Source: Opitutia bacterium ISCC 52
GTDB lineage: Bacteria > Verrucomicrobiota > Verrucomicrobiia > Opitutales > UBA2995
Direction: 5' to 3'
Length of the DNA stretch: 64,000 nt
Assembly (NCBI GenBank): GCA_014529675.2
Contig: CP076040.1
Span: 372,001 to 436,000, forward strand
Under the pieces are notes generated by a model that saw nothing but the letters and a program-made list of their open reading frames with translations, made no database searches and was not told the origin of the DNA. Of the stretch, positions 30,569-33,938 are shown piece after piece (within the stretch, counting starts at the first letter, position 1; each line of letters starts with the position of its first letter). Both the position numbers and the translations under genes were made by a program.

Positions 30569-32035
30569 ATGGCGGACGACCTACATTTTAAAACACTCAC
30601 AGAGCTTCAATCGCTTTTGTCATCCGGCGATGTGTCTTCAGTTGAATTGACCCAAGCTTTGATTAATCGCAAAGAAGCGGTTGATCCTCAAGTTCAGGCA
30701 TTCAATTCTCTGAATAGTGAAGGCGCACTCGCTGAAGCCGAAGCTGCGGACCAAAGACGTGCAGCTGGAGAGATAAAAGGATCCCTTGATGGAATTCCTA
30801 TCGGACTCAAAGATGTTATTTCGGTCAAAGACCGCCCGCTGACTTGTTCGAGTAAAATGTTGGAGGATTTTGTTTCTCCCTACGATGCAACCACCACTTC
30901 CAAGTTAAAGGATGCCGGTGCAGTTTTGTTTGGCCGCCTGAACATGGACGAGTTTGCCATGGGATCCTCTACGGAGAATTCGGCTTTTAAAACCACATAT
31001 AACCCCTGGGACCTCGAGCGTGTTGCTGGTGGATCGAGTGGGGGGAGTGCTGCTGCTGTATCCGCAGGTTCGGTACCTTTATCTCTCGGAAGTGATACGG
31101 GTGGATCTATTCGTCAACCTGCTTCTTTCTGTGGAGTGGTTGGGATGAAACCTACTTATGGTCGGGTATCCCGATTCGGTTTGGTCGCTTACGCTTCGTC
31201 TTTGGATCAGATTGGACCCTTTGGTCGCTCGGTGAAGGATGTCGCATCCGTCCTGCAAGCAATTGCAGGCCACGATCCTAAGGACTCAACTTCCATTGAA
31301 CAGGATGCCCCTGATTATTCTGCGCATTTGGGAAGTAGCAAAGGACCTTGGAAGCTAGGGGTGCCTAAAGAGTATTTTGGAGAAGGCCTGGATCCGGAAG
31401 TTAAAGAGAGCGTTCAAAAAGCCATCGATTGGTATGCCGATCAAGGGTGTGAGATCCAAGAGGTGTCCATGCCTAATATGAATTTGGCTGTAGCGACTTA
31501 CTACATCATCGCTACTGCAGAAGCTTCTTCTAACCTGGCACGATTTGACGGGGTGCGTTACACTCACCGAAGTAAGGACGTAGAAAACGCCATTGATTTG
31601 TATTTCAAAAGTCGCGCCGAAGGCTTTGGCGACGAAGTGAAGTTGCGGATCATTCTGGGAACCTACGTGCTTAGTTCCGGCTACTACGATGCCTACTACC
31701 TTCGAGCACAAAAAGTGCGGACCTTGATTCGTCAGGATTTCATGAATGCCTACGAACAGGTAGATGCACTTCTGACTCCGACCTCACCCTTTGTATCGTT
31801 CAAAGCCGGTGAAAAGAATGAAGATCCATTGGCCATGTATCTGAGCGATATCTATACCATTTCTGCCAACTTGGCTGGCATTCCTGGACTATCCCTTCCT
31901 TGTGGTCTCAATTCCGAAGGGCTTCCGATCGGGCTGCAAATTCTCGGCAAACCATTTGGTGAGGCTGACCTGCTTGCTATTGGGAATGCTTACGAAGAGG
32001 CCCACGATCACTCAAACCAACATCCGGTTTTATAG
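30569..32035 (+). CDS. gatA: Asp/Glu-tRNA amidotransferase subunit A
   Basis: This 488-residue amidase-signature protein has the Ser-cisSer-Lys triad readable as Lys81 (GLKDVIS), Ser156 (GGSSGGS) and Ser180 (DTGGSIRQP). It releases ammonia from glutamine for the GatB active site. It lies 20 bp after gatC. An inverted-repeat cassette begins 4 bp after its stop codon and separates it from gatB. Confidence 0.97.
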   Translation: MADDLHFKTLTELQSLLSSGDVSSVELTQALINRKEAVDPQVQAFNSLNSEGALAEAEAADQRRAAGEIKGSLDGIPIGLKDVISVKDRPLTCSSKMLEDFVSPYDATTTSKLKDAGAVLFGRLNMDEFAMGSSTENSAFKTTYNPWDLERVAGGSSGGSAAAVSAGSVPLSLGSDTGGSIRQPASFCGVVGMKPTYGRVSRFGLVAYASSLDQIGPFGRSVKDVASVLQAIAGHDPKDSTSIEQDAPDYSAHLGSSKGPWKLGVPKEYFGEGLDPEVKESVQKAIDWYADQGCEIQEVSMPNMNLAVATYYIIATAEASSNLARFDGVRYTHRSKDVENAIDLYFKSRAEGFGDEVKLRIILGTYVLSSGYYDAYYLRAQKVRTLIRQDFMNAYEQVDALLTPTSPFVSFKAGEKNEDPLAMYLSDIYTISANLAGIPGLSLPCGLNSEGLPIGLQILGKPFGEADLLAIGNAYEEAHDHSNQHPVL

Positions 32036-32040
32036 GAAGT

Positions 32041-32070
32041 AACCACGAATGGACACGAATGGACACGAAT
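32041..32070 (+). repeat. Left terminal inverted repeat of the GxxExxY cassette
   Basis: Three tandem 10-mers, AACCACGAAT, GGACACGAAT, GGACACGAAT. The start of the GxxExxY gene lies inside, so the repeat also encodes its first residues (MDTNGHE). Confidence 0.85.
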
Positions 32071-32438
32071 CTGATGTTCTGTATGCTGATGAGGTTTATC
32101 AGCTCGTAGGATTCTCCTTAAGTATTCTAAAGGAAGTTGGCCACGGGTACCATGAGAAGATTTACGAGAACGGAATCGTTGTAGACCTTCAGGAGAATGG
32201 AATCCAATATGTTCAGCAGGCGAAATACGATGTCCAGTATAAGGGGGTTGAATTGGGATATTATATCCCTGATCTCATCTCTCATGGAAAAATCGTTGTA
32301 GATACAAAAACGATTGATCGTATCTCTGATCACGAACGGGGTCAGATGTTGAACTATCTACGACTCACCAAGTTACGCCTTGGTCTAATTATTAACTTTA
32401 AACATGCTAAGCTGCAATGGGAGCGAGTAGTATTATGA
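32049..32438 (+). CDS. GxxExxY protein (PD-(D/E)XK_3 family)
   Basis: The 129-residue protein has the family-naming motif GHGYHEKIYENGI (G-x-x-E-x-x-Y) near residue 35, followed by nuclease-like strands YYIPDLISHGKIVVDTKTI, where D and the D-T-K group match a PD-(D/E)XK core (D...D-x-K), and HERGQMLNYLRLTKLRLGLIINF. The family is widespread as short cassettes; its biological role is not established. The first codons come from the terminal repeat, so the native start could be a later codon. It sits between gatA and gatB on the same strand and is probably co-transcribed with them. Confidence 0.88.
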   Translation: MDTNGHESDVLYADEVYQLVGFSLSILKEVGHGYHEKIYENGIVVDLQENGIQYVQQAKYDVQYKGVELGYYIPDLISHGKIVVDTKTIDRISDHERGQMLNYLRLTKLRLGLIINFKHAKLQWERVVL

Positions 32439-32440
32439 AT

Positions 32441-32470
32441 ATTCGTGTCAATTGGTGTCCATTCGTGGTT
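32441..32470 (-). repeat. Right terminal inverted repeat of the GxxExxY cassette
   Basis: Its reverse complement reads AACCACGAAT, GGACACCAAT, TGACACGAAT, differing from the left repeat at two of 30 positions. It ends 13 bases before the gatB start. Confidence 0.85.
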
Positions 32471-32483
32471 AATTTTTAATTCC

Positions 32484-33938
32484 ATGGAATACGAAGTTGT
32501 TATTGGTTTAGAGGTGCACGTCCAGGTTCGGACTAAGTCGAAGATATTTACTTCGGTGGGGGTCGGTTTCGGGCAGGACCCGAATACGTTGACCGATCCG
32601 GTCGTTCTTGGGTTTCCAGGTGCACTTCCCGTGATCAATCGCGAGGCAGTTGAGAAATCGGTCAAGGTAGGCATGCTTCTAGAAAGTACGATTCCTGAAA
32701 TTACAAAGTGGGATCGTAAGAATTATTTTTATCCGGATAGTCCGAAGAACTACCAAATCTCTCAATTCGATCAACCGATCTGTGAGGGTGGTAAAGTGGA
32801 AATCGAACTTCCCGGTCCCTCGCGAAACATCATGGGTGAGCACATGTGGGTCGAGCTGACTCGTGCTCATTTGGAAGAGGATGTTGGGAAGCTCAATCAC
32901 TTCGATAGCGATAGCTTGGTTGATTACAACCGGGCTGGAACTCCGCTCTTGGAAATCGTGACTGAGCCGGTGTTACATACCCCCGATGAAGCTTGGGCTT
33001 ATCTCACTGCTTTGCGCAACTTGATGATCTATGGCGACATTTCCGATTGCGACATGGAGAAGGGGCAAATGCGCTGCGATGCAAATATAAGTATTCGCCC
33101 TGTTGGTCAGAAAGAACTGGGAGTTAAAGTAGAGATTAAAAATATGAACTCTATCTCCGGAGTGCGGAACGGCTTGGCCTACGAGATTCAGCGTCAGATC
33201 CAAACTGCAAAAGCGGGTGGAACAATTCATCAGGAAACGCGTGGATGGGATGCGGCGAAAAACGTGTCCTACCATATGCGATTCAAAGAAGAGTCGCATG
33301 ACTATCGATATTTCCCGGATCCGGATTTGATGCCTGTGCGTATCGACGAAGCGTGGCGTGAGCGAGTCGCGAAGACCATTCCTGAGAGACCTTTCGATCG
33401 TCAACGCCGCTACTATGAGGACTACGATCTTCCTTTTACGGTTACGTCGGTCCTGATTCCTGATCCTGAACTCTGTGCTTTTTTTGAAGAGGCGGCAGAA
33501 GCCTCCGGTGAAGCTCAGCAGTCGGCCAATTGGATCGTGAACAATTTGCTCGGTGAGCTTGGCAACGCTGGCCTGGCCCTGGCGGACAGCAAAGTGACTC
33601 CTGCTCATATCGCAGAGTTGGTTGGCTTGATCAAGGAGGGTGCTATTTCTAAAAACATAGCGAAGGAGCAAGTCTTCGGGGATATGTTTGAAAACGGCAA
33701 TATGCCTGCTGCTGTCGTTGAAGCTAAAGGCTTGAAACAAAGCAACGACACGGGCGAGCTGGAGCCCGTTTGCCAGGAAGTCATCGATGCAAATCCCGGA
33801 CCCGTGGCAGAGATTCAAGGTGGAAATGACAAGGCGATCAATTTCCTTAAAGGGCAGGTGATGAAAGCCACGCGTGGGAAAGCCAACCCCTCGCTTGTCG
33901 ACCAAGTGCTTAAGGAGTTGATTGATAAAAAAGGCTAA
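32484..33938 (+). CDS. gatB: Asp/Glu-tRNA amidotransferase subunit B
   Basis: The frame is open from 32445 inside the right cassette repeat, but the conserved GatB N-terminus MEYEVVIGLEVHVQV begins at 32484, giving 484 residues. It has the kinase-like core (RKNYFYPDSPKNYQISQFDQPI, VDYNRAGTPLLEIV, EIKNMNS) and the C-terminal YqeY-like tail domain (TRGKANPSLVDQVL). GatB activates the acyl-tRNA and transfers ammonia. The bases before the ATG (AATTTTTAATTCC) contain no Shine-Dalgarno, possibly because the cassette displaced it. Confidence 0.96.
   Translation: MEYEVVIGLEVHVQVRTKSKIFTSVGVGFGQDPNTLTDPVVLGFPGALPVINREAVEKSVKVGMLLESTIPEITKWDRKNYFYPDSPKNYQISQFDQPICEGGKVEIELPGPSRNIMGEHMWVELTRAHLEEDVGKLNHFDSDSLVDYNRAGTPLLEIVTEPVLHTPDEAWAYLTALRNLMIYGDISDCDMEKGQMRCDANISIRPVGQKELGVKVEIKNMNSISGVRNGLAYEIQRQIQTAKAGGTIHQETRGWDAAKNVSYHMRFKEESHDYRYFPDPDLMPVRIDEAWRERVAKTIPERPFDRQRRYYEDYDLPFTVTSVLIPDPELCAFFEEAAEASGEAQQSANWIVNNLLGELGNAGLALADSKVTPAHIAELVGLIKEGAISKNIAKEQVFGDMFENGNMPAAVVEAKGLKQSNDTGELEPVCQEVIDANPGPVAEIQGGNDKAINFLKGQVMKATRGKANPSLVDQVLKELIDKKG

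Follow-up and report, generated by a model that had tools for sequence, protein, structure and literature searches.

What is a gene of the GxxExxY family, which has no assigned role, doing between gatA and gatB, enclosed by inverted repeats and little else, and what could have put it there? The window analysed here is a stretch of 64,000 nucleotides from Opitutia bacterium ISCC 52 (contig CP076040.1, positions 372,001 to 436,000), whose 4.8-Mb genome, hereafter the window genome, is a single contig. A cassette of about 430 bp splits gatA from gatB in this window, as the original prediction had it, and its neighbours were confirmed as gatC, gatA and gatB (Table 1). That prediction had also described 30-base inverted repeats made of 10-base units, with the start codon lying inside one repeat and the stop codon two bases before the other, and this architecture is borne out by the open reading frame and the repeats. 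Each arm holds three direct copies of a 10-bp unit, (A/C)CACGAATNN, and the similarity of the two arms reaches outward to 32037 and 32474 (34 nt at 91%). The ATG lies within the left arm, the repeat itself encoding the N-terminus MDTNGHE of the protein, and the stop falls 2 bases short of the right arm. No second gene was found in the cassette besides GxxExxY. The bases outside the arms had been taken for native spacers of 4 and 12 bases; these lengths are close (5 and 13 nt), but the assignment as spacer is doubtful. The left tail, with the G that precedes it, is like the AAGGAGTTAACC ends of other arm copies, and part of the right tail is likewise similar to the ends of other copies (..GTGGTTAATTTTTAA), its last CC being common to the empty site of a same-genus genome, G005. 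Because these parts (GGAAG.. and ..TTTTTAA) resemble the ends of other copies, they probably belong to the element.

Table 1. Features of the gatA-gatB cassette (positions in the window) and loci of the S23-like class (positions in the window genome where given)
Feature	Position	Strand	Description
gatA	30569..32035	+	left flank of insertion; TIGR00132
Left terminal tail	32036..32040	+	GAAGT, 5 nt
Left arm	32041..32070	+	AACCACGAATGGACACGAATGGACACGAAT, three 10-bp units
GxxExxY ORF	32049..32438	+	129 aa
Right arm	32441..32470	-	inverted copy of left arm, 28/30 match
Right tail	32471..32483	+	AATTTTTAATTCC, 13 nt, up to gatB
gatB	32484..33938	+	right flank of insertion; TIGR00133; ATG at 32484
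S23-like loci	L050 3041848-3042168, L051 4277713-4278027 (window genome); L333-L362		

The enclosed protein was predicted to be PD-(D/E)XK-like, and its family matches, catalytic residues and modelled fold all support this. It is a clear member of TIGR04256 (GxxExxY; E 6e-33, 113.7 bits over 114 residues, exceeding the curated cut-off of 35 bits) and matches PF13366 (PDDEXK_3; E 1e-29), a family described without a function. Its invariant residues are D75, D85-x-K87 (position 85 is D or E in the family), Q99-x3-Y103 and E36. Across the GxxExxY survey the D is present in 100% of proteins, the E/D in 100% and the K in 99%, with (D/E)xK kept in at least 98% and QxxxY in at least 99%; this combination is the RecB/Cas4 pattern, and it is nearly invariant. 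A structure model of the window protein (pLDDT 93.5) finds its closest solved structure in Cas4 SSO0001 (Z 9.9), followed by other PD-(D/E)XK enzymes including the resolvase Hjc (1gef, Z 7.2), and no PDB chain was matched by sequence. With its catalytic residues and a predicted restriction-endonuclease-like fold, the protein meets the criteria of the PD-(D/E)XK superfamily, from which nuclease activity is inferred. An anti-phage defence gene was considered as well and rejected, as no PADLOC defence family matched the cassette protein at E<=0.01. The search for a phage origin of the GxxExxY gene gave no PHROG and no phage record, and no relatives of locus L118 were found among viral contigs.

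Comparison of the gatA-gatB junction among relatives, which the original prediction had proposed as a way to define the empty site, reveals both states. The insert is absent from G005 and G004, of the same genus, and from G006 and G007, of the same family, where only 2-5 nt separate the gatA stop from the gatB ATG, a gap that suggests translational coupling. No recognisable ribosome-binding site for gatB exists at these empty sites either, and the idea that the insertion had removed one is thus not upheld. The cassette carries an intact gene in G002 and a broken one in G003, and in G001 only a remnant is left, consisting of the left arm and a short piece of cassette, together with a foreign palindrome. 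In the tree, G005 is sister to the window genome with 100% bootstrap support, and G001, G002 and G003 fall outside. Either a clean loss of the cassette occurred in G005, or this one site was hit repeatedly; both require specific mobility.

Cassettes move as whole units, as seen in G006, where two of them lie 2.3 kb apart (L184 and L191), 95.5% identical over 465 bp but with unrelated flanks. Their identity stops within a few bases of the arms and their genes show a dN/dS of 0.19; the pair meets the insertion-sequence criterion of copies at different sites in one genome. A target-site duplication had not been obvious to the original prediction, and we likewise found none that was consistent in L184/L191, in L185/L193 or at gatA-gatB. 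Some known insertion-sequence families also lack such a duplication. At one further locus, shared by the window genome (L040) and G005 (L199), the interior is inverted between the arms and the flanks remain collinear (interior alignment score 256 inverted, 29.5 direct), which recombination between the arms, or reinsertion, would explain.

The recurrence of the cassette at one junction raises the possibility of homing or gene drive, in which the nuclease would cut the empty allele, homologous repair would copy the cassette in, and gene-less arm pairs would be decay products. This reading gains from the site being filled in G000, G002, G003 and G001, among which the genomes with an empty site are nested, and from an orthologous locus that is filled in several genomes belonging to another family (L089, L156, L129, L112). 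However, inverted arms would be unnecessary for homing, and many dispersed arm copies, together with duplicates in unrelated flanks, require transposition to new sites. We consider homing improbable. The orthologous locus in the other family holds GxxExxY cassettes with differing arms, and is either an old insertion or a hot spot.

The dispersed copies were counted in the window genome by a pattern search with ACACGAATNNACACGAAT, allowing up to 2 mismatches. The pattern occurs at 49 sites, grouped in about 22 places, against 4 for the reversed control, so that the arm repeats are not a product of chance. Half of the places (11/22) are inverted pairs, comprising the gatA-gatB cassette (426 bp) and 10 pairs of 72-155 bp without a gene, which satisfy the criterion for MITEs of being gene-less and having terminal inverted repeats in common with a full element. 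None of the 22 places holds an arm-bearing element with any other gene. One copy, at 1846464 of the window genome, is missing from G005, where the adjoining flanks have decayed and leave no clean empty site. Related genomes, too, contain dispersed copies of the unit and of the 30-bp repeat. The original prediction would have been refuted had all close relatives carried the gene at gatA-gatB without repeats, or had the repeats occurred nowhere else with no empty site to be found; neither holds, given the empty sites in same-genus species and the arms elsewhere in the genome. Two other observations concern this repeat landscape. A gene-less element (L232:15425-15460; window genome 1851924) has one arm of CAGAT type and one of CGAAT type, and both arms of its orthologous copy in G005 (L238) are of CAGAT type, a pattern that, if the sequences are read at face value, suggests arm conversion between sister subfamilies. 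A repeat of about 260 bp, unrelated to the arms (L232:7247-7509; window genome about 1843746-1844008), is present in dozens of copies in G001, G002 and G005 of the same genus.

The original prediction treated the cassette as a local case. The observation itself is real, but flanking arms are a general property of GxxExxY genes. Such genes are present in 70/144 Verrucomicrobiota genomes, with 1-12 copies each, and a flanking inverted repeat above the 99th percentile of dinucleotide shuffles was found at 88/100 loci versus 13/190 displaced windows (median score 23.25 for the loci, 9.5 for the shuffles and 10 for the displaced windows). A small number of these 88 repeats (e.g. L106, L123, L172) are ordinary palindromes without the units of an arm, and about 80 is therefore the safer count. 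Contigs were scanned with the window-clade alignment A3, the broad alignments A1 and A2 being too diverse for this purpose. Similar arms flank 74 of the 79 scorable window-clade relatives (49-71% identity; many orders and some Planctomycetes), nearly all of them with the layout AACCRC[core]NNRCRC[core]NNRCRC[core]; in 60 cases the arm extends into the beginning of the coding match, and arm autocorrelation at lag 10 is 0.60, against about 0.27 by chance. The core varies by lineage (CACGAAT, CACAGAG, CACGGAG, CGCAAAG, ACAGGAT, CACGAAA), and an arm contains about three copies of it spaced 9-10 bp apart. Other phyla show the pattern as well, with clear arms around two of seven plasmid-borne genes; on a Sphingomonas parapaucimobilis plasmid (L364) the armed cassette lies between fabD and fabG, again in an operon, and a plasmid-borne cassette of Bacteroides adjoins radA. 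An ordinary domesticated nuclease gene that came to lie between dispersed repeats by chance could be entertained, as repeats are abundant in the window genome and PD-(D/E)XK proteins are common. Given arm rates of 88/100 and 74/79 against that of displaced windows, this account is strongly disfavoured and in our estimate has hardly any chance of being right; close relatives in which the gene at this locus is lost or has become a pseudogene also speak against it.

Arm sequence follows the protein it encloses, as the original prediction had proposed to check. When proteins from different bacterial families are paired, their arms have a mean similarity of about 8 if the proteins are <45% identical, 14.6 if they are 60-70% identical and 23 if identity is >70%, and the Mantel correlation between arm and protein is 0.388 (permutation sd 0.037 and maximum 0.142 in 2000 permutations). 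Restricted to pairs with less than 50% protein identity, the correlation is weak (r 0.105, permutation sd 0.045). Among 144 genomes, CGAAT arms and a window-clade protein occur together in 19, the protein only in 4, the arms only in 16 and neither in 105 (Fisher OR 31, p 9e-11); within GxxExxY-bearing genomes the association persists (OR 10, p 9e-5), the shared ancestry of genomes being ignored in both tests. Some GxxExxY gene is present in 34/35 genomes with CGAAT arms. The 16 arm-bearing genomes without a window-clade protein at E<=1e-30, among them G019 with 37 arm sites and G108 with 29, weaken the link between arm and protein without breaking it, because gene-less copies may outlive their partner. 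A separate case is G040, in which CACGAAT arms form an array with a spacing of about 205-252 bp (L212, L213; contig 1, 2193500-2233500) and the only GxxExxY gene has CAGAT arms.

These exceptions bear on the main rival explanation, in which an unlinked enzyme of the host or of another element mobilises the arms, and the GxxExxY gene is a hitchhiking passenger, its product binding the arms so that the element is regulated, protected or retained. We regard a passenger as unlikely, though it remains the strongest of the competing accounts. It is helped by the excess of gene-less pairs over cassettes of the window arm type in the window genome (10 vs 1), by the genomes that have arms and no window-clade protein, and by a second, non-nuclease family with analogous cassettes. 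Set against it are the tracking of protein by arm sequence over deep divergence, the invariance of the nuclease residues, and the lack of any arm-bearing element with another gene among the 22 places of the window genome.

The second family consists of S23-like four-helix-bundle genes (TIGR02436), which are flanked by inverted arms of 7-bp units in 27/32 loci (Table 1), with autocorrelations of 0.55 at lag 7 and 0.52 at lag 14. The length of the unit differs with the protein inside the cassette (9-10 bp versus 7 bp), which is consistent with that protein recognising the arms. S23-like genes are not nucleases and yet have comparable arms, so a cassette of this kind can exist without a nuclease, and the presence of tandem-unit arms alone does not mean that the gene between them is the transposase. 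S23-like genes are known from rRNA intervening sequences, and their similar flanking repeats lend some weight to a regulatory or RNA-level role, in which the arms would either act as operators or close the transcript as an RNA stem, as in 23S intervening sequences. Autoregulation or the processing of RNA would then constrain the arms, and the unit would move by ordinary recombination only. The arms could indeed pair in RNA, and the cassette lies inside a transcribed operon. Against such a role, a search for an RNA element in the cassette gave no Rfam match, the arms also exist as dispersed gene-less pairs, and three direct units per arm exceed the needs of a stem; we judge it to have little in its favour, slightly less than homing.

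We therefore return to the reading that we consider the most probable, albeit with some reserve: the cassette is a minimal selfish element with a single gene, for a nuclease that recognises the element's own arms and moves full cassettes as well as gene-less copies. The full element would be a cassette of about 430-500 bp, with inverted arms of about three direct 9-10-bp units each around one GxxExxY gene. Several nuclease subunits may bind the units of one arm, one unit per helical turn, as inferred from the spacing of about 10 bp, with specificity set by the repeated unit core (GAAT, AGAT, GGAT, AGAG, AAAG and others). We envision that the nuclease would bring the arms together and cut at their outer AACC ends, and that host repair or replication would finish excision and reinsertion; gene-less arm pairs would be non-autonomous derivatives moved in trans. 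This reading builds on observed dispersed copies, empty and filled sites, duplicates in unrelated flanks, co-variation of arm and protein, and conserved catalytic residues. Cassette mobility and the arm-protein linkage are well supported, and the mobile unit of the original prediction stands to that extent; its further proposal, that the unit moves by its own nuclease, remains an inference, as do cutting, binding and any movement caused by the protein, for which there is no biochemical evidence. We count against our explanation the 16 arm-bearing genomes without a window-clade protein, the lack of a consistent target duplication and the S23-like parallel. Autoregulation would equally produce co-variation of arm and protein, and we know of no transposition system with a lone PD-(D/E)XK nuclease.

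A widespread gene family without an assigned role, nearly always flanked by arms that co-vary with the protein, thereby gains a testable function and a link to dispersed repeats. If the nuclease does mobilise the element, it would be among the smallest autonomous DNA elements, with a new type of transposition enzyme, and the 4-nt core, which recurs within each arm and varies between lineages, offers a natural experiment in protein-DNA recognition. That the design recurs across the whole phylum suggests a class of minimal jumping elements not described before. As a wider conjecture, which we put forward only tentatively and hold with less than even confidence, a lone Cas4/RecB-like PD-(D/E)XK nuclease of about 125 aa could be the transposase of widespread elements of about 430-500 bp, reading a 4-nt core at 9-10-bp intervals; with a parallel 7-bp class that uses S23-like proteins, it could account for many unexplained short intergenic repeats of environmental bacteria.

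We found no link of GxxExxY, PF13366, TIGR04256 or the arm sequences to inverted repeats in the open-access literature, where the name GxxExxY appears only in passing; the element thus seems undescribed in what can be searched, which is no proof of novelty. Its parts nevertheless recall several known systems. The GxxExxY protein has its fold and the motifs D, ExK and QxxxY in common with Cas4 and RecB-type exonucleases and Hjc resolvases, but the cassette has no CRISPR or helicase partner, and the protein is too short for an iron-sulphur extension. The 23S rRNA intervening sequence with an S23 ORF is likewise a selfish unit of about 430 bp with one small ORF (428 nt in Coxiella; PMC4990558), whereas the cassette lies between the protein genes gatA and gatB rather than in rRNA, and encodes a nuclease. 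REPIN/RAYT systems, in which REP doublets are paired with a Y1/HUH transposase (PMC3116915), also combine short, dispersed, paired inverted repeats with a nuclease-type gene whose lineage matches the repeat. In contrast to the HUH tyrosine transposase RAYT, the cassette protein is of the PD-(D/E)XK type (PDDEXK_3), and its arms are three direct 9-10-bp units, not hairpin REPs. With insertion sequences and their MITEs the cassette has in common terminal inverted repeats, one enzyme gene and gene-less derivatives with the same ends. Unlike insertion sequences, it shows no consistent target duplication and has no DDE, HUH, tyrosine or serine recombinase, only a PD-(D/E)XK protein of about 125 aa within about 430 bp. 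The cassette is thus laid out like an insertion sequence with its MITEs, or like REPIN/RAYT, and is a member of neither because its enzyme class differs.
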